This document shows, one piece after another, positions 1,021-23,923 of a DNA stretch of 50,823 nt (within the stretch, counting starts at the first letter, position 1; the number at the start of each line of letters is the position of its first letter). The DNA comes from Pseudomonadota bacterium. GTDB lineage: Bacteria > Pseudomonadota > Gammaproteobacteria > Burkholderiales > Rhodocyclaceae. The notes beneath the pieces are model-generated. The model had not been told where the DNA came from and searched no databases. It was given only the letters and a program-made list of their open reading frames with translations. The stretch is from the NCBI GenBank assembly GCA_018262095.1, contig JAGTRW010000029.1:1-50823 (forward strand), written 5' to 3'. A program made the position numbers and the translations under genes.

Positions 1021-1163
1021 TATGGTTTACACAATAAGCAATTGGTTAACAAACGTAGTATCACCCTATTCGGCGAGGAACATGCCAAAGACATCTATTG
1101 GCGTTTCGCTTGAGCCTGCGACGTGCACTTTCTGGTTGCAATACGAATAAGCGGTCACGTCAG

Positions 1164-2540: not shown

Positions 2541-2541
2541 C

Positions 2542-4599: not shown

Positions 4600-6686
4600 T
4601 GAGCAGCGAGAACCCCGAGCCATCTGCGCAGGCATCAAGCGATGGCCATCAACTGCTGATAGAACGGGCACGCGGCCTCTTCCCCGTCGCAACGCTGCAG
4701 GATCTGGATCCCGAGAATGCCGCACGTTGTCAGGCGCTACTCGGCCATGGATCGACGCTCGGCATTTGGGAAACGCCTGAATGGATGACTGGGGGGCGAG
4801 CCCCGTTCAGGTTCCAGAGCCGCGCCCGCATCGTCCTGCGCGAACGCTTGCTACGGGGCCTTGCTGAGCCCGTACAGCCGTCGGCCGCCTTGGACGTCTT
4901 GCTCGACGAGGGTGTCCTACGGATCACCCGCTACCTGCTGCTAATTGCCATGGGGCCGGCTCACCTAGTGGATGGCAAATCCTCGCTGGACTGCACCAGC
5001 ATCGTCACCGTGACCGACGTTGTTGACGAACTCTTTAGCCAAGGCATCCTGCGACGGTTGGAACAGGACGACCGTACGGGCGGCGGACTACTACGCCACC
5101 TCACGGCAAACGACCTTCAAGCATTTGACCGAAACAAAGGACGGCACGTGGAACTCGTACGACTCAGGAAACTCACCGACTTGGGCCTCTGGAACGATCC
5201 CCTGCCGGCGCTAGAAACGAAACGCATCACGAACCCCAAGGGCAAGCGGGAAAAGCCGAAGCCCGAAACCAAGTCCATTCCATACCAGCCGATCCCGGAC
5301 GACTATCTGTCCGAGATGGGTCCGCGCGTGCTCTGGATTGTGGAAGACTTGGGCCCCAATATCATCCACCTGTCCGAGGCCATCCCCGAGTTGTTTGAGG
5401 GGATCGGCAACTACAATGAAGCACGCGTAACTGCTCTGGCCCGGTATTTCCGCCAGCACACCTGGCGCGACCGGGAAGGTCGGCCTATTACCGCGCCCCC
5501 TTTCCCGCTGGTGACTGCAACCGGAAAGGGCTATGCCAAAGGAAAAATGCGCCCTCACTGGCCACCCAGTTCGTGGGAGCAGGTGAAAGTCCTGGCTGCC
5601 ACCCTGCAATCCGCGCACCTGTGGATCGCTCTGCTAGCCATGGCCGGGCGCATTTCGGAGGTCGAGACTCTGGAGCGCTGCTGCGTCGAGTGGCGGCGCG
5701 ACGGCAAGCCGTACGTGGATGGCAAGACCTACAAGCTAAAGAAGGCCCTGGCGGGGGTGGATCGCGACTGGCCCGCCCCGGTTACGCTGATCCACGCGCT
5801 TGGCCAGCAGGCCCGCCTGGTCGCAGTCTGGGAGCGGATTGCGCGCGCCCTTAACGGTGCCGACCTGTCGAACGCGGATTCGCTGGTCGTCGATCCCAAC
5901 CATCTTTGGGCGTCGCTTGGCACGAGCTCTAGCGCAGACCCGGTGAAGCGCCTGAGCGGAATGAACAAGGCCCTCCAAATGCTCGCAAAGCGCATTGGCC
6001 TCAGCGATCGCCCCGGTGGCGTTTTGCTGCATTCCCACCGCTTCCGAAAGACGGTGGCACGCCTAGCCGGTATCGCCATCGTCGACTCGCCACGGGTCTT
6101 GATGCAGTTGCTGGGGCACAAGGACATCGAGGTGACCCTGCACTACATCACCACCGACAAGGCGCTTGCTGCTGACATAGAACGGGTAGCGCGCGAACTG
6201 CGCATCATGCGCTCACAGGAGGTGTTCGAGGGCATCCGTGCCTCGATGCAAACCGGCACGAAGAAATACGGCGGTGGTGGCGTGCCCGGCGTTGAAGCGA
6301 TGATCCGACAGGCCAAGGATTGGGGGGCTGAGACGAGCTATGAACTCAGCGTCCTACTAACTGCGAACGGCCGCTACACCAGATTGGTCAGGCCCGGCGT
6401 CATTTGCCTCAAGCCGTCTTTGAATAATGCGCCATGCACCTGCGACTCAAGCTGCGAAAACCGGATCGAACGCCTGATTGACGACGAAGTGCAGCGCCGC
6501 GACGTGCTCACGGTGATCCCGATCCTCATCGAAGAAGGCAACCGCGCGGTGGACGAAAACAGCCTGTTGGCGGCAGAGGACAAGCTGCGGCAGATCGACG
6601 AGGAACTGGGCTGGCTGGGCGAGGACGCCGCGAACGAATTCGCTGGCGACAAGGGCTTGGGACGGCTGCGGGAGGCTTTGGCATGA
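4599..6686 (+). CDS. Tyrosine recombinase 3 of trio
   Basis: A 695-residue integrase whose start ATG overlaps the stop of recombinase 2 (ATGA), with AAGGGAG upstream. The catalytic set looks intact: R351 in AGRISEVETLE, HRFR (H480, R483), H507 in LLGHKDIEVT and Y516 in LHYITTD. The long N-terminal half of about 300 residues is not recognised. The C-terminus has a CTCDSSC cluster that could bind zinc. With the two preceding genes it forms a trio of unequal recombinases. In recombinase-in-trio elements, as known, the three enzymes are encoded by overlapping genes on one transcript, which is the arrangement here. Confidence 0.85.
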   Translation: MSSENPEPSAQASSDGHQLLIERARGLFPVATLQDLDPENAARCQALLGHGSTLGIWETPEWMTGGRAPFRFQSRARIVLRERLLRGLAEPVQPSAALDVLLDEGVLRITRYLLLIAMGPAHLVDGKSSLDCTSIVTVTDVVDELFSQGILRRLEQDDRTGGGLLRHLTANDLQAFDRNKGRHVELVRLRKLTDLGLWNDPLPALETKRITNPKGKREKPKPETKSIPYQPIPDDYLSEMGPRVLWIVEDLGPNIIHLSEAIPELFEGIGNYNEARVTALARYFRQHTWRDREGRPITAPPFPLVTATGKGYAKGKMRPHWPPSSWEQVKVLAATLQSAHLWIALLAMAGRISEVETLERCCVEWRRDGKPYVDGKTYKLKKALAGVDRDWPAPVTLIHALGQQARLVAVWERIARALNGADLSNADSLVVDPNHLWASLGTSSSADPVKRLSGMNKALQMLAKRIGLSDRPGGVLLHSHRFRKTVARLAGIAIVDSPRVLMQLLGHKDIEVTLHYITTDKALAADIERVARELRIMRSQEVFEGIRASMQTGTKKYGGGGVPGVEAMIRQAKDWGAETSYELSVLLTANGRYTRLVRPGVICLKPSLNNAPCTCDSSCENRIERLIDDEVQRRDVLTVIPILIEEGNRAVDENSLLAAEDKLRQIDEELGWLGEDAANEFAGDKGLGRLREALA

Positions 6687-7192: not shown

Positions 7193-7686
7193 TGGCTCGT
7201 CCCAGTGTCATCCCCGGCATCAAGGCTCGCCTTGAAGAATGGCTTGACCAGAGAGAGGCCGCATACTTGGCTCAGCCTGAAGCAACACGTCAGCCCACGT
7301 TACCCATGACCCCTGATGGCAAGGTTAATGTGCGCGCCGTAGCACAGGCCATTGATCTCAAACCGACGCAGGACAAATACCTGTACGAACGAGAGGAACT
7401 GACGCAGTTGATCAACTGCATCGCTGAGGGCCAACGATTGCAAACGATCGGCTCACGCGTCAATCCAACCGAGGCTGACAAGGCCATCAAGCAGAAGATT
7501 ATCCTGCACGCCAAGAACGCGCAGGAAGCCACTCAGTCGGCCACAGAAGCCGTTGCTGCGCAGCAGGAACTACTGGACCGCATCCGAGCGCTCTCGGCCG
7601 AACTGGCTGTCTCTAAAGCGGAAGTAGAGCGCTTGCGCGCCCGGCTTCAAGCTGTCGAAACAGGCGTTTGGATCACCATGCAATGA
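7192..7686 (+). CDS. Coiled-coil protein of the mobility operon
   Basis: A 164-residue protein whose ATG overlaps the previous stop (TAATG). The first ~70 residues are mixed helix with no recognised domain. The last ~60 form a probable coiled coil (AAQQELLDRIRALSAEL, VSKAEVERLRARLQ). I do not recognise the family. Its place between the TnpC-like gene and the helicase, with overlaps on both sides, argues for a stoichiometric partner of the recombination machinery. Confidence 0.65.
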   Translation: MARPSVIPGIKARLEEWLDQREAAYLAQPEATRQPTLPMTPDGKVNVRAVAQAIDLKPTQDKYLYEREELTQLINCIAEGQRLQTIGSRVNPTEADKAIKQKIILHAKNAQEATQSATEAVAAQQELLDRIRALSAELAVSKAEVERLRARLQAVETGVWITMQ

Positions 7687-9845
7687 GTGGTGGCTTCGCC
7701 TTCGATAGCGATGTGACCGTTACGCGTATCGTATCCACGCTGGAATACGGCGCAATCTTTGTTGGGGAGACGCCCGCCGGCGAGTCGGTACGCGTACGCT
7801 ACCTGGGCCGCGCCGAACTACCGATCGTGGGTGATACCTTTGCCGTCAAGGGGCAGTGGGCTACCTTCACTGACAAGTTTCACCGTGTCCACCGACAGGT
7901 TGAAACCAAGGTGATGAAACGTCGGGCTGTACTAGGCGATCTGCTTGGCCCCTTCTTGCAGCGCGTCCCGAATGTTGGCCCGCAGCGCGCAGAACGTCTG
8001 ATACAGCGCTACGGTCATACGCTCGCCGAGACGCTTGCTGATCCGGCACGCATGAACGAGGTTGCCGGCGTCCTTGAACCGGGCAAGCCCGCGCTTGCTG
8101 CCCGCATCGCAGCGAAAATGTTTGCCGTCATGGTTGAGAAGTCGGCTGCCGATCAGATCAAGCTCGTAGAAGCCGAATTCCTCGTCCTGCTCGAAAAAAT
8201 CGGCCTGCGCGAGCCGCGTGTCGCCCACCGGCTTTGGCGTTTCTGCGCCGGTGCCGATGCTTTCGATCGCCTGAAGCACAATCCCTATCTCGCGGCCCAT
8301 CTCACTGCTTGGAACGTGGCTGACCGAGTGGGCAAGCTGCTGCTGCGAGACGCCAACGCTGGCTCCGATCTGGATCGACACCCGTCCCGGCTCATGGGCG
8401 CGCTCGCCTCGGCCTACCGCGACCTGCTGACTGAGGGACACAGCGCGACCACCGAGACAGCCTTGCGCGAAATGCTGGCCCAGCGCGGCGTCGACGCCGA
8501 CTTGGCGCTCGCGCATTCCGAGCAGATCGGCAACCTGCGCCACTGTGGCGATCTGATCCGTGTCCCCGGTGCCGGCTGGATCGAGGACGAGGTGGCCCGC
8601 ATGCTCAGGGACATTGAAGCCACGCCAACAAGCGTTTTCCAGCCAACAGTAGCCGAGTTGGACAAGCTGATCGACGACGGCGAATTGGCCTGTAACCTGC
8701 AACTACGGTACGAGCAGCCTAATGCCCTCAGGAAGCTGGTTTGCCTGCCCTTGGGCGTGCTGCAAGGTGGCGCCGGCACCGGCAAGACAACCGTAATGAA
8801 GATTCTCGCGTACGTCTGGGAACGGATGGGCGGCAACGTCGTCTTTGGTGCCTTGGCCGGCAAGGCGGCGCTGCAGCTCTCACGCGGTGCTTCGACCTCC
8901 GAAGAGCCTCGCCTAGCGCATACTTTAGCCCGGCTGATTTGCATGCTTGAGCAGCAGGCCACCTATGAAGAAGACCCGCAACAGACACGCAGGCCGGAAG
9001 TCGAGTTCAACAACAAGACGCTCCTAGTCATTGACGAGGCAGGCATGATGGACACGCCTACCTTCTACCAACTGCTCAAGCTCTTGCCCAAGGGCGTCCG
9101 CATCCTGCTTGCCGGTGACGATGGCCAGTTGTTCCCCGTGGCCTTCGGCAAGATCTTCCATGACCTCGTGGAGGAAGGCTCGCGCGTCGCCTCCCTCACC
9201 ACCGTCCAGCGCCAGGCGAAGGACAGCCTTATCCCCCTTGTTGCCGGCGAGATCAGGAAGGGCATCACGCCTCAATTGCCTGTCTGGCAAGGAGAAGACA
9301 AAGGCGTTTTTCAGATTGATTCCGACGCTCTGGCGCGGCTTAGGCGCAGCGACGACTTCATGCTGATTGCTGCACGCAGGAATACGGTGTCTGAGTGGAA
9401 TGATACAGAAGCAGCGAAGCATCGCAATGAACACTCGCCTACCCGACGCCTTGGCCTGACTACCGTCGCGGTGGGAGACCCAATCATTGTCACGCAGAAC
9501 CGCTACAAGCATGGCCTGTTCAACGGGTTGCTGGGCATCGTGTGCAGCATCGACGATGAGCGGGCTCAAGTTCATTTCGACGGGGAAAAGGAGCCGCGCT
9601 ATCTGCCGCAGGAAGCCGAGGTTGATGTTGAGCTGGCATACGCCATTACATGTCACAAGGCGCAAGGAAGCTCGGCGTCGACCGTTGTTCTGATCGCTGA
9701 CGACGGTGGTCTGGTAACCAGGGAATGGCTCTACACGGGGATCACTCGAGGACGCGAGTTGGTATTGCTCAATTTCGCAAACCACGAAAAGCTTGGTGAG
9801 GCGGTCGCACGGCGCTCCAACAGGGTCACTGGGTTCAGACTGTGA
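7683..9845 (+). CDS. RecD2-like superfamily 1 DNA helicase
   Basis: A 720-residue ATP-dependent helicase of the RecD2/TraA type. The N-terminal part has an OB-like segment and a helix-hairpin-helix-like stretch (VPNVGPQRAERLIQRYG). The motor has Walker A GGAGTGKTT (362-370), Walker B LLVIDEAGM (D451, E452), motif III LLAGDDGQL, a UvrD_C_2-like segment (AYAITCHKAQGSSASTVV) and motif VI YTGITRGRE (about 684). All motifs look intact. ATG 7683 overlaps the previous stop (ATGA); an in-frame TTG at 7668 is possible. It ends the six-gene operon. A helicase dedicated to a tyrosine-recombinase trio is unusual and suggests handling of single-stranded or forked intermediates (inference). Confidence 0.88.
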   Translation: MSGGFAFDSDVTVTRIVSTLEYGAIFVGETPAGESVRVRYLGRAELPIVGDTFAVKGQWATFTDKFHRVHRQVETKVMKRRAVLGDLLGPFLQRVPNVGPQRAERLIQRYGHTLAETLADPARMNEVAGVLEPGKPALAARIAAKMFAVMVEKSAADQIKLVEAEFLVLLEKIGLREPRVAHRLWRFCAGADAFDRLKHNPYLAAHLTAWNVADRVGKLLLRDANAGSDLDRHPSRLMGALASAYRDLLTEGHSATTETALREMLAQRGVDADLALAHSEQIGNLRHCGDLIRVPGAGWIEDEVARMLRDIEATPTSVFQPTVAELDKLIDDGELACNLQLRYEQPNALRKLVCLPLGVLQGGAGTGKTTVMKILAYVWERMGGNVVFGALAGKAALQLSRGASTSEEPRLAHTLARLICMLEQQATYEEDPQQTRRPEVEFNNKTLLVIDEAGMMDTPTFYQLLKLLPKGVRILLAGDDGQLFPVAFGKIFHDLVEEGSRVASLTTVQRQAKDSLIPLVAGEIRKGITPQLPVWQGEDKGVFQIDSDALARLRRSDDFMLIAARRNTVSEWNDTEAAKHRNEHSPTRRLGLTTVAVGDPIIVTQNRYKHGLFNGLLGIVCSIDDERAQVHFDGEKEPRYLPQEAEVDVELAYAITCHKAQGSSASTVVLIADDGGLVTREWLYTGITRGRELVLLNFANHEKLGEAVARRSNRVTGFRL

Positions 9846-10305: not shown

Positions 10306-11292
10306 CTAATTTCTGAATTCACTATCCTGCGCGGCTTCGCACGACTCCGCTACAATGATGGGTTGAACAGATTCCTCAGTTATCTCCGGCGCTATAGAGT
10401 CCTCGTCAGCGCTACGTACTCCGTCATTTGCAGAAGCCTTTCGGATTTGCGAAACAGCTTCTGTTGTACTTCCGCTAGACCATGTTGAATGCAACGATTC
10501 AGGGTCGAGTACAGACTTAACCGTCGCGCATTCGTAATTAAGAAGGGGACGCCCGGCAAGAAACAATCGCCCATCCATCACCTGGGGCCAGAAGATACCG
10601 ACGTCTGCGGAGTTTAGGTACTGGTAGACCTTCACAGCCTGGGGGGCCCCGCCGATACTGTCGTTAGCGTTTGCGCTCTTCAGAAGGTCTCGTATTACTT
10701 CGAAGGGCTCCATATTGAACTTCGCGGTAGGTGGGTGGCGCATGTCCAATCCATAGCGTGATTGCACCAACGTCTTCAGATTTTTCCGCATTGCTTCAGT
10801 CCACTCAGGATCACCGGCAATCTCTAGCTTCCCTAAATCCCCGAATTTATTGCTGCCGGTTCGCTCGTCGCTTCTGAATTGGTTTGTGGCTTCATCAAAC
10901 TCAATACGCCAAATTCGGAAGTTCTTGTCCCACCAATCGTATCCACCAAACAGAAATGTAACGTCTGGAATATTTTGACCGCGAGCGAAGTTGTGAACCT
11001 CTCTCTGCATTTGATTAAGAATATTGACTACGTGCGATTTGAATTTCGAGAGACCCATTGATCGAGTTTGTGACGGCAAATGGAGGTCCGCTGCGTTGAT
11101 TGCGGCCACAATCATCGGGTATGCCCAATCAGTACCACCCGCGAAACACATGACCGCATCAGATCGTGCGAAGCGAAAGGTTTTTTGGCAATGGTCAAAA
11201 CGCTTTCCGTTACTGAGACGGCTATCTGAGCAGAAAATCAGTTCTTCAGCACCACTATCAAGAGTGCGGACCCATGCAGCAGCGATAGTCAT
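10306..11292 (-). CDS. Proteasome-like Ntn hydrolase
   Basis: A 328-residue protein whose N-terminus reads MTIAAAWVR. After removal of Met it would expose Thr1, as in proteasome beta subunits and HslV. FCSDSRLSNG supplies the Asp at position 22 of the mature chain, and HCQKTFRF supplies Lys36. The set matches the Thr1/Asp17/Lys33 triad allowing for a short insertion. FAGGTDW resembles the glycine-rich turn of the same fold. The last ~100 residues are low complexity and not part of a known proteasome subunit. No HslU or Mpa partner is nearby. Substrate is unknown. It is the last cargo gene before the helicase, on the opposite strand. Confidence 0.6.
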   Translation of the reverse strand: MTIAAAWVRTLDSGAEELIFCSDSRLSNGKRFDHCQKTFRFARSDAVMCFAGGTDWAYPMIVAAINAADLHLPSQTRSMGLSKFKSHVVNILNQMQREVHNFARGQNIPDVTFLFGGYDWWDKNFRIWRIEFDEATNQFRSDERTGSNKFGDLGKLEIAGDPEWTEAMRKNLKTLVQSRYGLDMRHPPTAKFNMEPFEVIRDLLKSANANDSIGGAPQAVKVYQYLNSADVGIFWPQVMDGRLFLAGRPLLNYECATVKSVLDPESLHSTWSSGSTTEAVSQIRKASANDGVRSADEDSIAPEITEESVQPIIVAESCEAAQDSEFRN

Positions 11293-11892
11293 CGAATGTC
11301 CTTGTTATTAGTGCGTGGAGGTAGAGTTGCCGAACAGCGTTGGCACGAACCCCGTGGGCCATACAACGGCGGATGTTTATGACATCGGTAATTATACACA
11401 TCACAAGTGCTCCGCCTCTACTCTGCCAGGCTAACCGACAGCAATAGTGGAGCGTAAATCCACCGCAATGAGGGGATGTCCAGCAAGGCTTGAATACCCT
11501 TATTGGGAACGACCGAGCAACCGTCAGCTCCTGGCCGACAACAGCCGAAGTCGATGGCTCTAGCATTGATGGCGATCGACAGGAAGACCGACCGCGTGCT
11601 CCCGACTCCGAGCCGTCATTCGTCGCCGACACGGTTCAATGGCCGTTTACAGAGTCGAGCAGTCGTCTAGCACGACTGCTCATGGACAGCAACTCGGCAG
11701 GAGCCGATCTTCAATCGGTGACCTGTGTCGGTCCGCAATCCATCGGTCACCTGCCGCTCAGCAGCAATTCGCCCCTAACGGCAGCTCCTCCGCTGTTCAA
11801 ATGCGAACTCCAGACCTATTGCAGTCCCTCACCACTGATCGAAGCGGTCACTCGGAGGGAAGGCTTGCCCTCAAATCGATTCGCGCCGGAGG
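11293..11892. other. Intergenic carrying repeat copy A
   Basis: No gene is supported. The stretch holds dispersed-repeat copy A (described separately) and, at 11293-11500, sequence upstream of the proteasome-like gene with no clear promoter boxes. Open frames here are short and have no recognisable content. Confidence 0.5.
11528..11712 (+). repeat. Dispersed cargo-boundary repeat, copy A
   Basis: The core 11528-11606 begins CTCCTGGCCGACAACAGC and contains GAAGACCGACCGCGTGCTC. It matches copies near 15951, 18954/19138 and 19909, all in the same orientation. Similarity to the copy at 19909 continues to about 11712. That part includes a perfect 10-bp stem, GAGCAGTCGT at 11657-11666 pairing with 11672-11681 across a 5-base loop. 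The repeat lies between the proteasome-like and nuclease genes. Confidence 0.8.
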
Positions 11893-13245
11893 CTACTTCC
11901 CCACGAATATCCGAGTGACGGACCCAAACGGTTGCCATTCGGGCACGCACGACTCGAGTTGTCCGTCCTCCCGCAGCCAGTGATGCGCAGCCCCCGGAAG
12001 CATCGAAGGGTGCAGCGGGTGCGCGGCATTTGGGTTGTGATACACGTCCATACCCTCCATCCACGTTTCGCTATAGTCAGGGGAGTTCACATCGTGGGTG
12101 AAAATAACCGGAAGCACGGAGTTCGGGTCACGATTGGCAGCGGTTCCCTCGCGCACCAAATGGACGCGCTTGGAACCAAAGCCTGCGAGGACTCCCATAC
12201 GGTTGAACTTGGAGATGGTGGCACTCGCGTTGGAAATCACGGCGCTGATGTTCTCAGATCCAGGCAACGAAAAGAAACCGGACGCGACGGTCTTTTGCCC
12301 CCAAATGTGCGCTTCGATCTTTCTGGGGGTGATGATGAGCTTGCCATCAGCATCCTTTTGCCAATCCCATGCCATGCCATACAGATATATTGGCAGTGCC
12401 GTCCTGCTCATGACCATAGAGTTTGGAGCATGAAAATCTTGGATCGCGATGACAAGCGGACGTCCCTTGACGCTCTTCTTTTCCCAGTACATCTTACCGA
12501 GCTTAGTGGTCAGCGGTCCTGCGTATCGGATAGGCATGTACTGCCTCTGAAATGCCTGCATCTGCCCGTCCGTGTCGAGTGGCGGGGGAGGCACGAGTTC
12601 GCCGCCGCGAGTGCGGCTCGGGTTCACGGTCGTGGCTTCAACACACAACTCGCCAAAAGCATTTCGCGCGCAGAAGTCAGGCATGGCGAACCTCTTGTCA
12701 AAGATGTAGCCAGACTCAACCAGCGCTGCGAACAGGTACAGCTCCCAGAGCCTAGTATCGAAGCCAGTTGTCTGAAATTGCTCGACGAAATTGCCATCCG
12801 CGTCCTCGTACCAACGCATCATCGGCTTCATCAACTCAACGGCCGGTGAGTAGCCCTCGAGCGAGCTGATGGTCGCGAAATCGCGGTTGAGCTTTTCCTT
12901 GGCGACGATGGGGGTGAAGAAGTCGACGGGCTTGCCCCTCTCGTCGCCCTGCGCCTGCTTTCCGAAGTCGGAGTGAATCCTCTCGGCAAGTGCCGGAGCT
13001 GCAGCCAACGCCTTATCCATAGTCTCGAAGAATGTTGTCATCTCGACCCAGCGATACCGTTCCTTGAGGTCTCGCGCAAGGAGCATCGCCGAGTAGTCAC
13101 CATCTGTGACGTCGCGGATCACTACGATGAGCACCTCCTCGTCGTATGCCTCGAGCCAGCGCACTTCCTCTGCCGCGATGAGTGCGCCTGGCTGCCTGCA
13201 GTACGCGGCAAGCGCCTCGAAGCGGACCTGTTTGATATCTTGCAT
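11893..13245 (-). CDS. PD-(D/E)XK-like nuclease family protein
   Basis: A 450-residue cytoplasmic protein. The centre has the spacing of a PD-(D/E)XK nuclease: E168 in RLWELYLFAAL, D190 in AMPDFCARN and E203-A-T205 in LCVEATTVNPS. The usual Lys of the last motif is Thr, so activity is uncertain. Flanking parts are not recognised. It starts just downstream of the SEC-C gene on the same strand, with AGGAGAGGGG upstream of ATG 13245, so the two may be one unit. No modification enzyme is adjacent. A defence role is inference from context only. Confidence 0.55.
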   Translation of the reverse strand: MQDIKQVRFEALAAYCRQPGALIAAEEVRWLEAYDEEVLIVVIRDVTDGDYSAMLLARDLKERYRWVEMTTFFETMDKALAAAPALAERIHSDFGKQAQGDERGKPVDFFTPIVAKEKLNRDFATISSLEGYSPAVELMKPMMRWYEDADGNFVEQFQTTGFDTRLWELYLFAALVESGYIFDKRFAMPDFCARNAFGELCVEATTVNPSRTRGGELVPPPPLDTDGQMQAFQRQYMPIRYAGPLTTKLGKMYWEKKSVKGRPLVIAIQDFHAPNSMVMSRTALPIYLYGMAWDWQKDADGKLIITPRKIEAHIWGQKTVASGFFSLPGSENISAVISNASATISKFNRMGVLAGFGSKRVHLVREGTAANRDPNSVLPVIFTHDVNSPDYSETWMEGMDVYHNPNAAHPLHPSMLPGAAHHWLREDGQLESCVPEWQPFGSVTRIFVGK

Positions 13246-13388
13246 TCCCCTCTCCTATCTAGCAGCAACGCACGCTACTGTCTGCTTTTAGCCTCGCTCC
13301 GGACTGCGCTCTTGAATCGGAAGCGGTCACAGAAGACCGACAAAATTGAATACCTGAACCGACCTAAATTGGCAGACCCGGCTCACTC

Positions 13389-15761
13389 CTAGCGACCATG
13401 ACATCTTTTATATTTGGCACCGCTACCGCAGGGACACGGATCATTCCGCCCCGGTTTTTTCGCATTTCCTTGGGGCTCGGCGTTGTTCGGCTGGTTTAGG
13501 TTCACCGCCCGGGTGGGCCGGGCCATTCGTGCGGCGTCTTCGTAAATATGTGCGTTTGTTGCCGTTCTCGCCGTCGGTATGTGGATCGAGAAAGATTGCG
13601 TCCGGAGGTATGCTCCATCGGCACCAACCTCGGCCAAGACGCCGATGGCGTCATTAGCCTTGAGAGCCAACGCAGCTGCGCTGGCCTTGTCATTGACCTT
13701 TCTCCAGTCAATCTGGTGGTCATGTCGTTGTAGCCAAATGAAGAGTGGGTAACCGTCTCCAGACAGGCTAAAGTAGCGAGCGGGATACTGCTTCAAGGTT
13801 TGGAGAAGATCGAACAGCATCTTGGCCAGACTATTCCGGCCTTCCTCTCCCAAATCACGGATATGGCTCTCCGCAGAAAGCCAGCCTTGTGCTCTAGTGG
13901 CGTCAAGCGCTTCAAGCAGCTTCAACAACTCCTCCGGGAAGACCTGCGTCGGAAATGGCCCACTTTCCCAGTCTTCACCCTCGAAGCTCCTGTCTACGAT
14001 ATCGCTCATGCCGTCCCAGATGACCAGGTTTACCATGCCACCCTTCAACTGGTCGGCAATCTCCTGATCGAAACGGTTCTTCTTGAGATACGCGCCCAGA
14101 TGGTCGAACTCATCGAAGAGATGAGCCCGGCGTATCCCTGCCACGGCTTGTCGAACCTCCATGTAGTGGGCAAACGAGCCGGGGGTGGGCAGGAACCGCT
14201 TGAGCACAAACAACTCGTCAATGGACAGCGATACGAAGGCATGCTTCCCAAACAGTGGCACGACCTGAGGCAATTCCTTGCAGTATGTCGAAAAGGGCGA
14301 GAACGACTCGACCGTCAGCCCAATCGGCACCATCACGCGGTAGCCGGAGCGGCGGACACGCCCGCACTCTTCGTACTTGCCGGCGACGAAATGGTAAAGC
14401 GGCACTTCGTCCGCAGAGTTCAGGTAGCTAAAGAAGCGCGCGCACTGCTTGTACGCTTTGAGCACCAAATCTTGCACGGACTGGGCGTGACGGCCGAAAT
14501 CAAGTGCCGGCGACGCAATGGTAGCAGCCGCTCCTGCCTTGGCTTCAACCAAGAACAGCACGTCATCAACCAGAATGAGCGTGTCGTTTTCAGCCCACTG
14601 ATTGCTGGCAGGGTCCTTGTAGTAGACCTCCTGAAAAATCTTGGCGCCGGGAAGCTGGGCGGCCAAAATGTCGGCGAAGGCACCTTCGCTCATCGTCTTT
14701 TGCCGATTTTCAAAGGTCTTCTTATAGTCAGGCTTTCGCTGAAGGAGGTTGTAGAGAAGCGCACGATACCCCGCGTCGCGGGCGAAACACGGGTCGACGG
14801 CGTAGTAGTCCGATCCAAGCTGGATTAGGGGTTTCTTCCGGGCCGGCAGTGTCTGGTAGGGTGTCCCCGCAAAATCGCCCGCAGCGAAGAACTCGGTTTC
14901 TTCTCCGCGCCGGTACGCCAAGTCTGCCAGCAGCGCTGACGGCAATTTCGTGTGACGGCTCACGTTGGTGATGCCGCCTCGAAAAATATCCTCCATCGCC
15001 CTCCCGGCGGCTTTTTTTTGTTCCGAATTGGCCTCAGCCCACGCCTTCATAGCATCTTCCCAAGGCTCGTCCTGCGCCGCAGCGAAGGCCCGCACTGCCT
15101 CAAACTGCTTCATCATTTCCTTGATAGCGTAGGCATGCCCAGAACGCGTGGCGTTGGCCATGGCCTGGAAGCCTTCCGCGATCTCGGAGGCCCCGACGCC
15201 ATACACTTCAATTAGGACATCGTTGTGCGGAGCCAGAACATAGCGGTAGAACTCTTCTTCCAAAACTTGGTAGCGATTCCCGCGTAGCATGACCCAGGTA
15301 GATTTTGCACGGAACTCGATGTCGGCCGTGTCAGGACCGAATACGCCGTCCTTGGTATCGGCGGACGTGGCCATGGCGAAAAACATGGCCTGCGCTCGCA
15401 GTTTTCTACCAAGTTCAAGCAGCTCGGCGCACTGAGCTTCGTCGAATGCCATTTCCGTAGGTGCGGCATCTGACGCGAGAACCGCGTGCACGTACTCCAG
15501 CAGGAACTGGTTCTCGTTGATCAGATCATCCAGGCCGTCGTCTTCGCGTTTCTCCTCGGTGGCGCTTTGGTCTGCCATCGCTTTCATCATGTACTGGGCG
15601 TAGATGTAACCGAGCAGATCATGCGGAGGCATGGTTACAATCAGCCCGCGCATTCGAGCTGCAATCGCTTCCATTTCTTTCAACAAGGAAGCCGCGGTTT
15701 CTTTTCGTTTTATCTCGTCGATAACCAACGTATCCCCTATATTTCTGAAGCCAGAATCCAT
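13389..15761 (-). CDS. SEC-C motif protein with nuclease-like core
   Basis: A 790-residue protein. The last 20 residues are a textbook SEC-C zinc motif: C776, C778, C787 and H788 in the pattern CPCGSG...KRCHG. SEC-C tails often attach to nucleic-acid or chaperone-linked enzymes. Midway, E360, D394 (ENDTLILVDD) and E406-A-K408 (FLVEAKAG) give a PD-(D/E)XK or NERD-like arrangement with an intact ExK. The first ~340 residues are mostly helical and unrecognised. It is followed on the same strand by the other nuclease-like gene. The two may act as a pair, but no known system is matched. Confidence 0.65.
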   Translation of the reverse strand: MDSGFRNIGDTLVIDEIKRKETAASLLKEMEAIAARMRGLIVTMPPHDLLGYIYAQYMMKAMADQSATEEKREDDGLDDLINENQFLLEYVHAVLASDAAPTEMAFDEAQCAELLELGRKLRAQAMFFAMATSADTKDGVFGPDTADIEFRAKSTWVMLRGNRYQVLEEEFYRYVLAPHNDVLIEVYGVGASEIAEGFQAMANATRSGHAYAIKEMMKQFEAVRAFAAAQDEPWEDAMKAWAEANSEQKKAAGRAMEDIFRGGITNVSRHTKLPSALLADLAYRRGEETEFFAAGDFAGTPYQTLPARKKPLIQLGSDYYAVDPCFARDAGYRALLYNLLQRKPDYKKTFENRQKTMSEGAFADILAAQLPGAKIFQEVYYKDPASNQWAENDTLILVDDVLFLVEAKAGAAATIASPALDFGRHAQSVQDLVLKAYKQCARFFSYLNSADEVPLYHFVAGKYEECGRVRRSGYRVMVPIGLTVESFSPFSTYCKELPQVVPLFGKHAFVSLSIDELFVLKRFLPTPGSFAHYMEVRQAVAGIRRAHLFDEFDHLGAYLKKNRFDQEIADQLKGGMVNLVIWDGMSDIVDRSFEGEDWESGPFPTQVFPEELLKLLEALDATRAQGWLSAESHIRDLGEEGRNSLAKMLFDLLQTLKQYPARYFSLSGDGYPLFIWLQRHDHQIDWRKVNDKASAAALALKANDAIGVLAEVGADGAYLRTQSFSIHIPTARTATNAHIYEDAARMARPTRAVNLNQPNNAEPQGNAKKPGRNDPCPCGSGAKYKRCHGR

Positions 15762-16127
15762 GCCAAAAGCATCATTGATGTGACACAGAGAATACTAGCA
15801 ATATTAGTGACCGGTAGCCGTTGCATTGCTGTCCGACACCAGTGGATAGTTAAACGTCAGCAAAGGACGAGAAGCCGGAATTGCCCCTCCGGCAAGTTGC
15901 GAAGTGCAGCGGACTTTCATATGGAGGCTTTCAGGAGTGCTCGAACGTCTCTTGATGACCGACAACAGCCAAAGTCGTTGACACCAGCATTGATGGCGAT
16001 CAACCGGAAGACCGACCGCGTGCTCCCGACCCAAAGAGGGCATGCGAGTATTTGAAAAGTAGACTTTCAACCTTAGTTCACTGGCCTGCACGGCCTTTCT
16101 GCACACTCAGAGGGATGAATGGTTGAC
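15762..16127. other. Intergenic carrying repeat copy B
   Basis: No gene is seen. The centre is dispersed-repeat copy B. Flanking sequence includes GCGGACTTTCATATGG-type text that recurs in weak form elsewhere in the island gaps. Confidence 0.5.
15951..16030 (+). repeat. Dispersed cargo-boundary repeat, copy B
   Basis: It matches copy A over the core: GACCGACAACAGCC, AGCATTGATGGCGATC and GAAGACCGACCGCGTGCTC in the same order and spacing. The left edge differs (CTTGATGACC in place of CTCCTGGCC). Homology appears to end soon after 16030, so this copy lacks the hairpin-bearing right half of copies A and D. Confidence 0.75.
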
Positions 16128-16382
16128 CTATAACGGAACGATCCTTCCAAATGCAGTTTCGATGAGCCGGAGAATTTCTACTTCCGCATTCTCCGCTTCA
16201 GCGCGAGTTTCATTTTTCTTATAGATGAACGTATTTCCATGGGCATGTACGATAACCTCGAAAGGCCCCTCCCCACGGGTATCACGTATGGTAACGCAAT
16301 CTATGCTTTGAAGCGGAATATATGAAGTGGAAGTCTTGGTGCATTCACTAACCTGCACCCATTGATTATTGAAAATCTTCAC
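16128..16382 (-). CDS. Small hypothetical protein
   Basis: An 84-residue protein beginning with GTG at 16382. The sequence is mainly beta-like in the first 55 residues (IPLQSIDCVTIRD, FEVIVHAHGNTFIY) and ends in one helix (AEAENAEVEILRLIE). This is the pattern of a small PH-like or regulatory domain. No family is recognised. It lies between repeat copy B and the membrane-anchored gene upstream on the same strand. Confidence 0.5.
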   Translation of the reverse strand: MKIFNNQWVQVSECTKTSTSYIPLQSIDCVTIRDTRGEGPFEVIVHAHGNTFIYKKNETRAEAENAEVEILRLIETAFGRIVPL

Positions 16383-16544
16383 TATGTATTATCCATTGAT
16401 TAAAAAATATAGCCGTTTAATTCCAGTGACCAAGGTCTGAAAACGCCCCCGAACAGACCTTTGTCCTTTCGAAAAGCGGACTATCGAACGTTTGAATCGA
16501 GCGGACTGCGCGGCTTTTTCACACAGGTCGTCTCGAACGCAGGA
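16383..16544. other. Short gap with inverted repeat
   Basis: An 8-bp inverted repeat, AAGGTCTG at 16432-16439 with CAGACCTT at 16454-16461, follows the upstream gene's stop. It could be a weak terminator. TTTTTCACACAG near 16520 distantly resembles the end of the MITE at 18968 and may be a relic. Confidence 0.3.
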
Positions 16545-17135
16545 TTAGGGCTCACGTTTTTTGGAGGTTTCATCAAGATATAGGTCGCTCAGTAGCCCAA
16601 GGAGCTCGATTCGGCGCGAACTCAACTTTATGAACGAGTCGCTCAAGTCGATTGGGCTGGCACCACCATGAATTGGGTTTGCTTGCTGCTGAAATCCGAA
16701 GTTGTCCTGCAGGTAAAGCTCGAATAGAGCGCTGACGCGGGAATTACCGAGTAGGTATGTAGCTGTACGTGCACCGCAGCACCTGTCTATTGCCGACGAC
16801 AACGTGCTGAAGGCATCTTGTAGTTCCTGGGATGGCGCAATGGGAGCCGCCGCGTCTTCGATTTTGGTTCGGCGAAATAGACCCGAATAGGCGCTGTGTG
16901 CGTTCTCCACTTCGGCAAGCACCGCAGTGATGTCCGTAATGAGGTTCGCCTTCCGCTCGCTAGTCATCTTCCGTTTTTCCGAATCGGCAGCAAGATTTGC
17001 GATTGCTATGTCCTTTTGATGCGATGCTCTTCCGAGGTAGACAGTAACGAGCAGCGATGCCAGCGTAACTAGCGATGGGATTCCTATCTGAATGAGGGAG
17101 GTGACCCAAGATGCTGTATCGGCTGAAGTCGTCAT
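16545..17135 (-). CDS. Membrane-anchored hypothetical protein
   Basis: A 196-residue protein with one probable transmembrane helix near residues 14-35 (IGIPSLVTLASLLVTVYLG), followed by a basic, charged helical region (about 40-75) and a mixed cytoplasmic tail. No catalytic motif is recognised. ATG 17135 sits only about 10 bases after the attC-like site, the spacing expected for the first gene of an integron cassette. The function is unknown. Its placement beside an ATPase/TOPRIM gene makes a membrane effector worth considering, without direct support. Confidence 0.55.
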   Translation of the reverse strand: MTTSADTASWVTSLIQIGIPSLVTLASLLVTVYLGRASHQKDIAIANLAADSEKRKMTSERKANLITDITAVLAEVENAHSAYSGLFRRTKIEDAAAPIAPSQELQDAFSTLSSAIDRCCGARTATYLLGNSRVSALFELYLQDNFGFQQQANPIHGGASPIDLSDSFIKLSSRRIELLGLLSDLYLDETSKKREP

Positions 17136-17144
17136 GTCTTGTGA

Positions 17145-17215
17145 GTCCTAAGGTTGGAGCTAAAGGGCGGCTTGGGCGCAAGCCAAAGACGTCCCACTTG
17201 AGCGAGTTGTTATAC
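17145..17215 (-). repeat. attC-like integron recombination site
   Basis: Read on the minus strand this 71-bp site begins GTATAACAACTCGCTCAAG, close to the RYYYAAC core and the left arm of known attC sites. Its centre is a stem of GGCTTG (17169-17174) pairing with CAAGCC (17179-17184). The far end is CTTAGGA, two bases away from the GTTRRRY core. It begins five bases after the ATPase stop codon and ends just before the next start codon, as in cassette arrays. The right core is degenerate, so it may be inactive. Confidence 0.55.
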
Positions 17216-17220
17216 GCACA

Positions 17221-18723
17221 CTAACGCGCATTAAATACGGGCCCTAAAAGTTCCATAAGAGGAGCAATGCCGCCAGAATATAGATGATCTATATATTTAC
17301 GATATAGAACTCTGCGAATTGTGGTTTCATCGGTTCCGCAAGAATTGCGGATGTATTCAACAATTGAGTCTAGTTTGTTTTTCGCCACCTTTCGTGGCGA
17401 ATCTCCAGTAATTCTCCGGTATATAGGGAGCATGATATGGTTGGTTAGATTTACGGTTGTTCCATAAAAGTCGACACGCAGTCCATTGACGTTCATGTTT
17501 GCATGAAAAACATCGAACATGGCTGTAACGCCAATCTCGGGCGTGCATGGGAGGAACGAAACTGCGCCCCTGAACCGATCATATAAATCTGTTAGTGACT
17601 GTGTGCCATTTCTTCTGGCTTCTGGTATTGCCTCAGTTCGAACATCATCATCCAAGAAAACATGGCGCTTAACGTGGGCTGGGATAATTAACGCTGATCT
17701 TTCTAGCATTTGCATGACTTGATAGTAGCCGCCAACGGGCACGACTTTGTACATTGGCTTATGGGTGTTCCTGCTTTCCTCAAACCTTCCACAAAGTTGC
17801 TCAAGTAATAATTTTGCTTCTTCATCTTCGACGAAAAATATGAAATCGCTTTTGATCTCTTCGTCAAATGCGATCTCACCAAGAACTTGAGCCGGAAATA
17901 CATTTGTTTTTGTTGTGTACGCCCCTTGATCATCTCTAGAAATGAAAATTATGTTTCTTCTGTTGATATTTTTCACCAGCGTTGATGAGTGTGTAGAGAA
18001 GATCACTGTTAAGCTTTTGTTGGTGACTATTTGAGTTATTTTATTTAGCAGCCTTACTTGTGCCTGAGGATGCAAGGCCATCTCAACTTCGTCAATTAGG
18101 ATTAATGAGTTGTTTTCAGCGGCAGCTACTTTCTGAGCGAGTTTAAGTACGCATAACTCGCCAAGGCTAAAGTTCTTCTCTGAATAGTAGTGGGTTTCTC
18201 TTCCTGCTCTATATGGTAATAGGAATGCTTGGTTCCCTGTTCCTCTCCTAGTGTTAACGAACTTTAAGTCATTCCACTTGTTGTCGTGAAGAACGGAAGA
18301 TAAGAAGTCTGTAATTTCATTACTTGCCTGATTAATTCTCCTTGGAATTATTTCTTCCGCGTACGGTTCTACCCTGCTTCCATCCGCTTGAATAAAATAA
18401 ATGCTTGGATATGGAAACAGGGAGAGAATGTTTGCGTTGCTCCTTGGCGTTGGTGGCCAGCGCTTTCCTCCATAGGAATATGTAACTTGTTGCCCGTTAA
18501 TTTTGTACCGTACTTTCGCATCCTTGAACGTATCCAATTTTTCTTGCGTAGCGGTGGTTTTGTAGTGCTCTTGAAAGGCGCGGCCATGTCTTATTCGATA
18601 TAAGGCGGCTAGCAGGCTTGTTTTCCCAGATCCGTTTAGGCCGGTAAGAAGCCAAAGCCCGGGACTTGGAATATCAAATTCAAGATTGGAGATGCCTTTC
18701 AGATTTTCTAATTCAATTCTCAT
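17221..18723 (-). CDS. OLD-like AAA ATPase with TOPRIM domain
   Basis: A 500-residue protein. The ABC-type ATPase half has Walker A GLNGSGKT (28-35), signature FSLGE (185-189), Walker [14 protein letters not shown] (D211, E212) and the switch His in FSTHSS (H245). The second half has a TOPRIM-like start, [11 protein letters not shown] (E299), and an acidic LDDD (357-360). This is the order seen in OLD-family nucleases and related defence ATPases such as GajA. The TOPRIM assignment is by motif only. The coding region is visibly AT-richer than the core genes, which suggests separate acquisition. The attC-like site directly follows its stop. Confidence 0.75.
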
Positions 18724-18953
18724 TTATTATTCACTTCATGATTTGCGTATAATTTGATATAGGGAGCAGTTTTGCTGAATAACATCGGCGTGTGCTCCCT
18801 AACATGGCACGACCGGCCAGCGGAGAATGGCTTGCAGACTAGCGCGGCGTGATTGCACTGTATGAGCATACAGAATTAACAGAATCGACAAAAACCTCAC
18901 CCTACCGATTTCAGTTCCGGAGCAACGGCTGCTTTGTAGCGGCAAATCTGAAC

Positions 18954-19210
18954 GTCCGCTCCTGGCCGAGGCTGTGTGAAAACGCAAGAATACGACTGTC
19001 CGAGAAACAAATCCCCACTTTCCAATGGATTTATCGAGGATTAATGGCCATCCGATGCTCCGAAAATACCGAATAACCTCGATATGAGCGGCCATTTCCC
19101 ACTCATCAAAATCGAATGTACGTTTTCACACAGCCTCGGCCGACAACAGCTAAAGTCAATGACTCTAGCATTTATGGCGATCAACCGGAAGACCGACCGG
19201 GTGCTCCTGG
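18954..19210 (+). repeat. Dispersed cargo-boundary repeat, copy C, interrupted
   Basis: The left fragment GTCCGCTCCTGGCC (18954-18967) and the right fragment beginning GGCCGACAACAGC (19138) rejoin exactly into the copy A sequence if 18968-19137 and one GGCC are removed. The right fragment then continues with AGCATTTATGGCGATC and GAAGACCGACCGGGTGCTC to about 19210. Confidence 0.75.
18968..19137. mobile_element. MITE-like element with 17-bp terminal inverted repeats
   Basis: The termini are GAGGCTGTGTGAAAACG (18968-18984) and its perfect reverse complement (19121-19137). GGCC is duplicated on both sides (18964-18967, 19138-19141), consistent with a 4-bp target duplication. The 170 bp interior has no coding capacity for a transposase, so it is non-autonomous. 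The GGCTGTGTGAAAAC end resembles ends of several insertion sequence families; I do not assign one. Confidence 0.8.
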
Positions 19211-19255
19211 CCCAGAGCAGTCAGTCGACACTGTGATTCTCATGTTGGCTTCAAG

Positions 19256-19828
19256 TCAATCATGTCGGAGGATCATTTTTATATATTCGTCATGGTGTTT
19301 TTTGTGGCGCAAGTTAAAAATACAGTCAACAAATTCTCCGTCATCTATTCCGTATTCGTTTTCATAACCAGAAATCACGAAGCTACTACGATGATGATCA
19401 TAAATTTCATCATGCAGATCTTTGTAAAAAGTAAAAAAATCTACAGGGAAAAAGCACTCTGAAGGCAGCCCTGACTCGTAATGTGTCATTCTCTTAGTTG
19501 AGCCATCCACATTACGATGCAGCCCATCAATCCTCGACAACACATCGCCTTCTATACACTTAACTTCCTGCATGGATATGTTGTGCGTGAATTTAAAAGC
19601 GCAAAATAAAAAATAGCCTGGGCGGGTTGAGCTATACGATCTTGACGCGAGGTCTCCCATCGTCATGCCAATTTTGGCGAAACTGTTATCTAGGGCGTCG
19701 GCCCCAAGATACAACCACCTATCAAGCGACTCGAAATTCATTTTTGTATCCTGCTCAACATGTTCTAGCTTATAGTCGCCGCCAGAAAATGAGCCGAATC
19801 CGTCAGTAGATATAATTGTCTTCCTCAA
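19256..19828 (-). CDS. GIY-YIG/T5orf172-like hypothetical protein
   Basis: A 190-residue protein in an AT-rich stretch. Residues about 38-100 resemble the T5orf172 branch of GIY-YIG nucleases: WLYLGAD (Y40), FAKIGMT (K52, G54), a following Arg (R63), FLFCAFKF, then Glu in QEVKCIEGD. The match is by pattern and spacing only, and the second Tyr of a classical GIY-YIG pair is not certain. The C-terminal half (HDEIYDHHRSSFVISGYE) is unrecognised. It stands alone between repeat copies C and D, so it forms a single-gene cargo unit. Confidence 0.5.
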   Translation of the reverse strand: MRKTIISTDGFGSFSGGDYKLEHVEQDTKMNFESLDRWLYLGADALDNSFAKIGMTMGDLASRSYSSTRPGYFLFCAFKFTHNISMQEVKCIEGDVLSRIDGLHRNVDGSTKRMTHYESGLPSECFFPVDFFTFYKDLHDEIYDHHRSSFVISGYENEYGIDDGEFVDCIFNLRHKKHHDEYIKMILRHD

Positions 19829-20230
19829 AGTTATTCCTCTAGCATCGAATTAACCAAATTACTAACATGGAAGCATTCCGAGCACTGGACGTTTCGTTCA
19901 AGTGGCCGCTTCTGGCCGACAACAGCCAAAGTTGATGACTTTAGCATTGATGGCTATCTACAGGAAGACCGACCGCGTGCTCACGACCCCCTGCCGTCAT
20001 TCATCTCCTTCGAGGTTCAACGGCAGGTATCTGAGTGGAGTAGCCGCTCGGCACGGTTGCTCACGGACGGCAGTTCGGCCAAAGCCACCGCCCACTAGCC
20101 GTTATCGGTGTGACCGCGTTGCAAAAATTGACAGCCCCAGATCAATGCACTGGCACCGCTGATGCGACTCGATTATCGAATTGAGTATTCAGAAGCACCG
20201 AAGTTCTGCGCGAAGATCTGGATGCTCGAT
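19829..20230. other. Intergenic carrying repeat copy D
   Basis: No gene is supported. Most of it is repeat copy D with its extended right half. The remaining 20100-20230 shows nothing recognisable. Confidence 0.5.
19909..20098 (+). repeat. Dispersed cargo-boundary repeat, copy D
   Basis: The core 19909-19987 (CCGCTTCTGGCCGACAACAG ... GAAGACCGACCGCGTGCTC) matches copies A to C. The match to copy A extends through CCGTCATTC, GGTTCAA and a hairpin made of GAGTAGCCG (20038-20046) with CGGTTGCTC (20054-20062). That hairpin is in the same place as the perfect stem of copy A but has changed bases, two of them giving G-T pairs or mismatches. Confidence 0.8.
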
Positions 20231-20728
20231 TCATCGCTCCGCCAGTCGTGCTGCCAGTTGCGACAAAATGCAGGGGGCACTGATCCCAAGATGTGAGTCA
20301 GTTAGGATCAGTCGCTTGATATCGATCAACGCCCACCCTTCATCGTCGTCGTCGATCGCAAGCCAACGCTCAACCCGTTCGGTACGGACATAGCGCATGA
20401 TTTGTTGATACCTCGTCGCTTTGTCCCACCACGTCAGGGGAACCTTGAAACCACCGATAGTTCTGCGTTCCAGTGACGAATGCCAAGTTCCTCCGATGAC
20501 ACGCCGCTGCAGCGACATCGGCAGAAATTTCCGAGCTCGGTTGAACCCTAAAACACGACACCAAGAGCTCGAAATCACGATCTCGACATCAGGGTGCGGT
20601 TCGAGGGCTTCTTCGAGGTAACCAGACCACATGAACAGACTACCTTCGCTGCGCAGCACCGGGCGACCGTTCTCGCGAAAAACCGCATCCGGGTGGAGTA
20701 CCCCGTCATAATCAACGAATAAGATCAC
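20231..20728 (-). CDS. HAD-like phosphatase domain protein
   Basis: A 165-residue protein starting with GTG at 20728. It opens with ILFVDYDGVLHP, the DxDG motif I of HAD hydrolases (D6, D8). VISSSWC (about 51-57) fits motif II, and LAIDDDDEGW (about 123) gives the acidic motif IV. The cap domain is minimal. Such small HAD proteins in accessory regions are often nucleotidases or polynucleotide phosphatases; the substrate here is unknown. It follows the AbrB-like gene by about 40 bases and is probably co-transcribed with it. Confidence 0.75.
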   Translation of the reverse strand: MILFVDYDGVLHPDAVFRENGRPVLRSEGSLFMWSGYLEEALEPHPDVEIVISSSWCRVLGFNRARKFLPMSLQRRVIGGTWHSSLERRTIGGFKVPLTWWDKATRYQQIMRYVRTERVERWLAIDDDDEGWALIDIKRLILTDSHLGISAPCILSQLAARLAER

Positions 20729-20768
20729 GCATCTCTCGCCATTGGGGATAAAACACCGAGGCTATACT

Positions 20769-21143: not shown

Positions 21144-21146
21144 GAT

Positions 21147-21611: not shown

Positions 21612-21731
21612 GGCGATCCCATCCAACTCTATAGTGAAGTTAATTGTTAAGTGTTTCGACCTGTTAATAGTCGATTTTGGACTATTCTAAAATGGACTGC
21701 AACCTTGGCGTTCCTCTCAACTGGTGCGCCA

Positions 21732-21977: not shown

Positions 21978-22041
21978 GCAATTTAGGCTACTGGCCTAGG
22001 GCAAGAGCAGTCTTATTGTGCAAGCCGACGAGGGTAAGACC

Positions 22042-22935: not shown

Positions 22936-23364
22936 AGTTCGAGGCGCGCGGGCCAACTGGATAGCGCGTCAACTATCTCAGCATCACGAGCTAGCTTTGG
23001 ACGCCGCTGAAAAGATGTCATTTTCGTCCCCATTCGAAATGCAAATAGTTGCGTTGCTAGATAGTCGTACAGATGCTGCTGCCGCAGCCGACGAGTGCGA
23101 ACTTCACCGGATCACCACTCCGACGGGCAGACTTGCTTGAGCGACAATTTCACGACTAAATTGCCGTTAAGCTGCACCATCCCCACTAGATGGAAGCCCA
23201 ACCAGATATCTTCCATCTATCGCACAAGGCACTAGATTGAACTGAACTTGTGTAAAACAGGGGTTTTGGGATACTCGTCTAGTGTTTCGCTCCGTATACC
23301 GGCTGTTATGCGGGTTATCGGCAAGCTCAGAAAGCAGCGAACGATCCCGATCGTCGCGCGCTGA
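22936..23364. other. Intergenic right flank of island
   Basis: No gene is supported. A 10-bp perfect inverted repeat, TAGATGGAAG at 23187-23196 with its complement at 23210-23219, separates the accessory part from slyX. The junction of island and core probably lies between about 22,940 and 23,364. No tRNA gene or long direct repeat is seen to mark it. Confidence 0.4.
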
Positions 23365-23577
23365 TCAGTAGTGCGGCGGGATTTCGTCGCGCAGATTGCG
23401 CGGCTCGGCGTTTTCGGCAGACTCGGCGTTGGCCCGCATCTGCCCGTAGAGATGGCGCAGCTGCGCCTGCAGCAGGTCGAGCTGTTGCTGCTGCCGATAG
23501 ATCGTTCGATTGAGTTCATCGAGCAGATCTTCGTTGAGGCTCAACTTGATTTCTAGTTCGGTGATGCGGTCGTTCAT
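23365..23577 (-). CDS. slyX: SlyX family protein
   Basis: A 70-residue acidic coiled-coil protein. ITELEIKLSLNEDLLDELN and YRQQQQLDLLQAQLRHL are the conserved SlyX helix. The end PRNLRDEIPPHY is the family's typical DE-PPHY tail. SlyX is widespread in proteobacteria; its role is not settled. The gene is single and divergent from the zinc-ribbon gene. It marks the return to core chromosome after the island. Confidence 0.92.
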   Translation of the reverse strand: MNDRITELEIKLSLNEDLLDELNRTIYRQQQQLDLLQAQLRHLYGQMRANAESAENAEPRNLRDEIPPHY

Positions 23578-23666
23578 GGTTCAATCCTCAAAGCGCCGTC
23601 GGCCGCTGGCGTGAGCACGAAGCGACCGACTATAATCCGGCAGACCTACAAAAAAAGGATAACGCA

Positions 23667-23918: not shown

Positions 23919-23923
23919 ACCGG

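Follow-up and report, generated by a model that had tools for sequence, protein, structure and literature searches.

Among described systems, the locus considered here invites comparison with three: the genomic islands with three integrases (GInts), which passages of Bardaji et al. (2017, PMC5385486) describe as being flanked by imperfect direct repeats, attL and attR, of 10–17 nt; integron cassette arrays; and the miniature inverted-repeat transposable elements (MITEs) with other short dispersed bacterial repeats. We analysed a 50,823-nt stretch of a draft Rhodocyclaceae genome (contig JAGTRW010000029.1 of assembly GCA_018262095.1; hereafter the window), in which four similar repeats lie in one orientation between genes of a defence-rich island. 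The initial annotation had taken these repeats for boundaries of cargo modules, either in a cassette array or as scars of serial insertion. Our analysis leads us to consider it somewhat more probable than the contrary that they arose through local multiplication of an old MITE-like intergenic repeat, non-coding and in decay, and are not cassette joints.

Results

A repeat search of the window recovered a direct-repeat family of four copies of 90 nt, all on the + strand, with cores at 11533-11622, 15957-16046, 19138-19227 and 19914-20003, the last three being 83, 84 and 88% identical to the first copy (c1); the four same-orientation repeats noticed initially are therefore real. Copies c1 and c4 are alike over a longer span (77% identity across 188 nt), and the full repeat unit is about 180–190 bp, of which c2 and c3 retain only the first ~90–115 bp. 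With up to three mismatches allowed, the 19-nt core GAAGACCGACCGSGTGCTC occurs four times in the window against 0.06 expected, a count reached in none of 100 shuffles. The copies, and an insertion that splits one of them, are as follows.

11518..11705, + strand: repeat copy 1 (c1), full length of ~188 bp with imperfect 12-bp inverted ends; profile match at 11517-11704 (training copy)
15940..16054, + strand: repeat copy 2 (c2), first ~100–115 bp only; profile match (training copy)
19138..19232, + strand: right part of repeat copy 3 (c3), profile match at 19135-19232 (training copy); the left stub, ~18952-18967, lies across the insertion
19897..20086, + strand: repeat copy 4 (c4), full length with imperfect inverted ends; profile match (training copy)
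18968..19137, no strand: MITE-like insertion in c3, ~170 bp, flanked by GGCC on either side and ending in 17-bp inverted repeats GAGGCTGTGTGAAAACG

The inverted pair around the insertion (18964-18984 and 19121-19141) is perfect over 21 nt including the GGCC flank. The cores listed initially near 11528, 15951, 19138 and 19909 stand, whereas the one near 18954 is not a separate core and represents the left stub of c3, cut off by the insertion. All four window copies are intergenic. Taking as genes eight minus-strand cargo open reading frames (ORFs) between 10306 and 20728, one obtains seven gaps, four of which hold a repeat; of the other three, the attC remnant occupies one and an attC-like site chosen by eye a second, and the third contains neither. 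The claim that the copies lie only in gaps between cargo modules is thus right in so far as the window copies sit at cargo gene boundaries, but they occupy only 4/7 of these gaps, and divergent copies elsewhere in the genome stand beside ordinary genes.

The source genome is a 4.80-Mb draft of 82 contigs and contains six close copies, namely the four in the window and two on contig C72, 718 bp apart. A profile built from these six (R1) adds four more below E=0.01, on contigs C10, C64, C78 and C22; a second profile built from the R1 set plus those four (R2) gives E<=7.1e-12 for each of the ten, as its construction partly ensures, and picks up a weak match at C48:36639 (8.7e-4). With a 16-sequence profile, a copy that was in no training set is found at C48:32071-32179 (E=4.1e-8). 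In all, there are five or six divergent copies elsewhere in the genome. The copy on C10 adjoins an AraC-type regulator and that on C64 a PhzF-like gene; the C22 copy, beside a 3-demethylubiquinone-methyltransferase-like gene, lies between convergent genes, and the C78 copy lies between a mandelate-racemase-like gene and a DUF3579 gene. Because these four extra loci are in ordinary places, the repeat family is not confined to cargo islands. Between non-overlapping loci only the repeats align and the 1.5-kb flanks do not (c3 and c4 are excepted, as their loci overlap and the alignment is trivial).

Within this dispersed family the window copies form a distinct cluster. Among 400,000 simulated random placements of 12 copies, only one brought four or more of them within 8.5 kb. 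Over 70 nt, c1–c4 are mutually 86–90% alike compared with 67–80% with the other copies compared (a table that omits c6 and the C78 copy), the exceptions to this separation being c1 with c5 (82%) and c4 with a copy in the metagenome-assembled genome (MAG) CTSoil_123 (L062; 85%). From the clustering together with this mutual likeness we conclude that the island copies multiplied locally or arrived together. Random scatter unrelated to gene modules, the outcome that the initial annotation had set against its own proposal, describes the family only in part: the clustering is non-random, yet the divergent copies do keep company with ordinary genes.

The 16-sequence profile was also run over 163 loci, from which 23 loci duplicating the window or C72 had been excluded beforehand; it returned 78 rows at E<=0.5 versus none on the same loci reversed, in a set enriched for matches, as many loci had been chosen because something in them matched. 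Seven distinct places outside the training set were matched at E<=1e-3. The confirmed genome copies, on seven contigs, all read '+'. We draw no conclusion about replication-linked orientation from this, the orientation of draft contigs being arbitrary and the GC skew of the examined slices mixed in sign. Contig C72 carries a second small island (L007 8430-12654), whose genes are of DUF4145-like (a weak match) and RES-domain type; it contains two repeat copies, together with attC-like sites whose status is doubtful.

As for the nature of the unit, DNA folding of both strands of the four window copies gave eight z-scores from -0.54 to +1.71 and no palindromic hairpin. The first-half consensus has a fold energy of -0.06 with changes on both sides in none of four predicted pairs, the second-half consensus an energy near 0 with no pairs predicted, and Rfam gave no match in 8000-24000 at E<=1. 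A structured RNA is ruled out by the lack of a conserved fold, of compensatory change and of an Rfam match, and a protein-coding remnant by the differences between c1 and c4, which fall 17/16/13 by codon position over 186 nt without third-position excess. The outer ends of the unit, located by eye, are imperfect inverted repeats that score 9.5 in c1 and 10 in c4, a score of 9 being reached by 0.38% of 5,000 window pairs. No target-site duplication is seen by eye at c1 or c4, copies that may be too old to show one. An old MITE-like element would account for these features of the unit better than a site built on short conserved cores.

Close copies at the DNA level are found in one of 59 relatives, namely the source genome itself, and in two of 399 genomes of the order, the source genome and one (G346) with a 24-nt match. 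Nowhere in these sets, nor with R2, did another genome show the same array of copies. The class (369), order (399) and relatives (39) sets each include the source genome, and outside it the R1 and R2 matches are weak: 10/368 other genomes of the class (E 0.0014-0.009), 15/398 of the order (E 2.9e-4 to 0.005), 17/38 of the relatives (E 5.3e-4 to 0.05) and, in one more comparison, 1/33 others (0.005). We treat these as mostly chance; a few congeneric ones may be real, for example that in G002 (L079, E=8.7e-5 with the 16-sequence profile). The second half of the unit matches a plasmid of Azonexus hydrophilus (E=7e-7) and one of Azoarcus sp. KH32C (2e-8), with no annotated feature beneath in either case, and more weakly Paraburkholderia plasmids, among them that of P. 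phymatum (E=1e-6 with a consensus query not built from it). Of the 39 other genomes in the relatives set, three have it as well (G008, G022 and G013, each of them congeneric), and one from outside the genus gives a marginal match (E=0.0088). The head, or first half, is matched in CTSoil_123 at 34 bits, the next-best stretch reaching 15 bits; genes read by eye place this copy between convergent LysR-type and transporter-like genes.

Pattern searches reached little further. A degenerate 25-mer has no occurrence in the collection of assembled-genome contigs, and a looser degenerate pattern finds 32 stretches there, of which only the one in L062 scores well. Five stretches of viral contigs carry the looser pattern, none with a model match at E<=1, and none carries a 34-base pattern; among phages there is a single weak match (E=0.2), within a gene. 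Letter searches of the literature for GCGGACATTC and TTCAACGGCAGGT, with keyword searches for intergenic repeats, gave nothing relevant among the matches listed, and it is on account of these literature searches alone that we call the family apparently unnamed.

In some other records the repeat unit ends at or near a palindrome of the type TCGGCCTTATG...CATAAGGCCGA. Palindromes of this type were located at the following places.

L178:3064-3095
L062:2435-2464 and 97-128
L179:3001-3033
L187:5000-5021

In Aromatoleum one lies ~0.5 kb from a run of tyrosine recombinases, and in Thauera one lies near an operon of the cyclic oligonucleotide-based antiphage signalling system (CBASS), where the repeat match is only E=0.16. 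The palindrome is absent from the first 24.5 kb of the window.

A genuine integron exists in the same genome. Its integrase, on contig C77 and not in the island, matches TIGR02249 with 478 bits, above the cut-off, and the attC array beside it gives 14 matches to R3, a structure-aware attC model built mainly from C77 sites, 12 of these matches being training sites. The C77 integron (L015 5826-15176) is of the chromosomal type, and all 14 matches are on the minus strand. Training of R3 included two sites picked by eye, window 17143-17217 and L007 10266-10338, so that its matches at these two places are by construction. The island contains the following sites.

16487..16548, - strand: attC remnant, extending into the stop codon of the gene at 16545-17135; E=5.9e-5 with a C77-only profile
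17146..17215, - strand: attC-like site, probable second remnant, starting 6 nt past the 17221-18723 gene; picked by eye
16065..16128, - strand: possible strongly decayed attC at the stop of an 84-aa ORF; R3 10.2 bits, E=0.58, not significant

For the site at 16487-16548, the best match of the C77-only profile to reversed sequence is E=0.33, and R3, from whose training set the site was absent, also matches it (18.6 bits, E=0.009). An attC thus lies directly downstream of a same-strand gene, and the island contains an integron cassette remnant. At 17146-17215 the 52 bits given by R3 are by construction and the C77-only profile gives E=2.6, leaving the architecture as the main evidence. On C72, a site at L007:8430-8528, after a stop at 8539, is matched by R3 without training (E=0.001) and receives no support from the C77-only profile (E=11), with which the attC-like site picked by eye at L007:10272-10333 gives E=13. 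A loose core-box scan, to be given low weight (R'' and R' boxes, RYYYAAC and GTTRRRY, at 50–150 nt spacing), yielded two candidates in 9.5–24 kb, neither on a repeat copy, and 13 in the C77 stretch, with four in the control region of 24–50.8 kb, three in L007 and none in 1–9.5 kb. Unfiltered R3 gave five matches at E<=10 in 10–24 kb, none of them on a repeat copy. That the four repeats are themselves attC sites is ruled out by the absence of a palindromic fold and of an R3 match. The attC remnant leads us to conclude that part of the cargo came as integron cassettes, the joints of which are attC sites and not the repeats.

The island as a whole is laid out as follows.

383-934, - strand: IscB-like HNH part in an ORF, 48 bits, below the curated cut-off of 175; start of the island on the contig
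1098..6686, + strand: three consecutive tyrosine-recombinase-like ORFs (480, 706 and 751 aa), phrog_1 integrase E 8.8e-6, 2.7e-8 and 1.3e-6
6683-7192 and 7192-7686: two small ORFs between the recombinase trio and the helicase
7668..9845, + strand: RecD2-like helicase ORF, RecD2 model 231 bits, below the cut-off of 500
10306..11292, - strand: cargo ORF of 328 aa, no family assigned
11893..13245, - strand: cargo ORF with a match to the anti-phage defence family PD-T7-1, PADLOC 635.8 bits
13389..15761, - strand: cargo ORF of 790 aa with a SEC-C motif at its end
16128..16382, - strand: cargo ORF of 84 aa
16545..17135, - strand: cargo ORF of 196 aa
17221..18723, - strand: cargo ORF, AAA ATPase, resembling many defence ATPases
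19256..19828, - strand: cargo ORF of 190 aa, no family assigned
20231..20728, - strand: cargo ORF with a HAD_SAK_2 domain
23308..23365, no strand: right edge of the island, where synteny with congeneric genomes stops, just past a gene that we take to be slyX

The third recombinase-like ORF has a single tblastn match among plasmids (Microvirga, 29% identity). We compared 13 congeneric loci (L159-L170, L172): the conserved block lies directly at the edge in four and ~10–14 kb away in four, and the sequence examined for the other five shows no such block at the edge or close to it. Since four loci carry an insertion of ~10–14 kb and four carry none, we regard the place after slyX as an insertion hotspot in the genus. 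No copy of the repeat occurs in the 16 loci that represent this site in congeneric genomes; two of these loci are only fragments, shorter than 3 kb. A search for attL and attR between 851-1110 and 22941-23700 gave one 10-of-12 match (1099/23280) and three 9-of-10 matches, about chance level by estimate, and none at the thresholds for 14–20 nt.

Discussion

Our preferred reading of these repeats can be put as a sequence of events. The unit of ~180–190 bp, with imperfect ends GCTtcTGGCCGA ... TCGGCCAaAGC, would be an old intergenic repeat of Betaproteobacteria, a family that presumably once moved or was copied in the source genome, perhaps by transposition. Within a mobile, defence-rich island it would have multiplied locally, perhaps by local hopping, and the copies would later have decayed through ordinary substitution and truncation. 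The island genes, arranged tail-to-head on one strand, arrived in part as integron cassettes with attC sites of their own, and the repeat copies would sit between cargo genes because insertions survive there. The repeats are probably passive; at most, homologous recombination between copies in the same orientation could delete or duplicate a module.

Several observations weigh against this reading. The local-expansion picture is not perfectly clean, given the 85% likeness of c4 to the CTSoil_123 copy. Among plasmids, the first-half consensus finds no match, nor does c1 as a whole at E<=0.01. The inverted ends were chosen by eye, score only 8 in L176 and are missing from L177 (score 4), and those of c1 and c4 are not independent evidence because the two copies are related. 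No transposase or target-site duplication is tied to the repeat, no search aimed at a parent transposon having been made. Lastly, six of the seven cargo gaps are occupied, whether by a repeat or by an attC-like site, of which one was chosen by eye; the remaining gap may fall within a two-gene unit. A boundary role of the repeats is kept as a minority view.

Other explanations have to be weighed against the same observations. All six copies in the two island clusters are upstream of a minus-strand gene, and both neighbours are on the minus strand for 8/10 copies examined (c1–c6, C10, C64), by choice of likely genes, as if the repeat were an upstream leader or regulatory region common to the minus-strand cargo genes and duplicated together with their cassettes. 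We consider this unlikely: the C22 and CTSoil_123 copies, lying between convergent genes, precede no gene, the copies stand at anything from ~60 to ~230 bp from the start codon (c3, enlarged by its insertion, at ~410 bp), and the loci align in nothing but the repeat. Rather improbable, in our judgement, is that the copies are scars of repeated duplication, one copy having entered with an early cassette and later adjacent insertions having duplicated the flank. The closer mutual likeness of c1–c4 and the attC remnant, which shows that cassette insertion happened in the island, speak for such a history; however, c1 and c4 share 188 bp whereas c2 and c3 share only ~90 bp, with no common sequence outside, and to our knowledge integron insertion does not duplicate flanks of ~90–190 bp. 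Nor did the original suggestion of scars of serial insertion find support, in view of the dispersed copies elsewhere and the lack of any in the 16 congeneric loci at this site.

One could also suppose that modules are truly joined at the repeats, in a cassette-like system distinct from attC and worked by the tyrosine recombinases at 1–7 kb or by some other enzyme. The position of all four window copies at gene boundaries in one orientation, the further pair clustered on C72 with minus-strand genes on either side, and the non-random clustering would all agree with this, as would the ends of c2 and c5, which fall ~10–18 nt from the attC-like sites 16065-16128 and L007:10272-10333, neither of which is significant alone. 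Nevertheless, we find it quite improbable, considering that the similarity of the window copies spans the whole ~90 nt and is not limited to short cores with variable middles, that there is no fold, that divergent copies adjoin ordinary genes, that the congeneric loci at the same site have no copy, and that the plasmid stretches hold a single copy each. The stronger proposal, that the repeat is an active or formerly active, attC-independent joining site that stacks defence modules and is mobilised by the neighbouring recombinase trio, appears very improbable to us. What survives of the cassette-array idea is the presence of integron-cassette remnants in the region, downstream of the recombinase trio; the repeats as its joints are not supported, as they lack attC structure, have divergent relatives beside ordinary genes, and share their second half with plasmids of other genera.

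The feature is thus real but ordinary, a known kind of thing: the local expansion of a dispersed, decaying repeat in a mobile defence island. Its analysis tells apart real cassette joints and a decayed dispersed repeat, which resemble each other in the bare sequence. It also records an intergenic repeat family that is widespread among Betaproteobacteria and apparently unnamed, and a defence island in which at least one remnant of an integron cassette lies downstream of a module of three recombinases. Should the repeat prove to be a joining site after all, it would constitute a new route for stacking defence genes.

Returning to the known systems, the island resembles the GInts, as presented in passages of PMC5385486, in its three consecutive tyrosine-recombinase-like ORFs at one end, its small ORFs, its variable cargo and its insertion beside a conserved gene, a likeness of layout. 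Unlike GInts as described there, it has no convincing attL or attR; it would at most be a candidate member, and those passages of the paper do not describe internal repeats like the ones here. With integron cassette arrays the locus shares the tail-to-head arrangement of genes on one strand and at least one attC remnant in the region, whereas the repeats lack an attC fold and a match to the attC model. In contrast to MITEs, the repeat comes without a parent transposase or target-site duplication found, is old and degenerate, and has a second half common to several families of Betaproteobacteria; yet like MITEs and other short dispersed bacterial repeats it is short (~190 bp), non-coding and intergenic, with about a dozen copies in the genome, and its two best copies, c1 and c4, have imperfect inverted ends, as located by eye.

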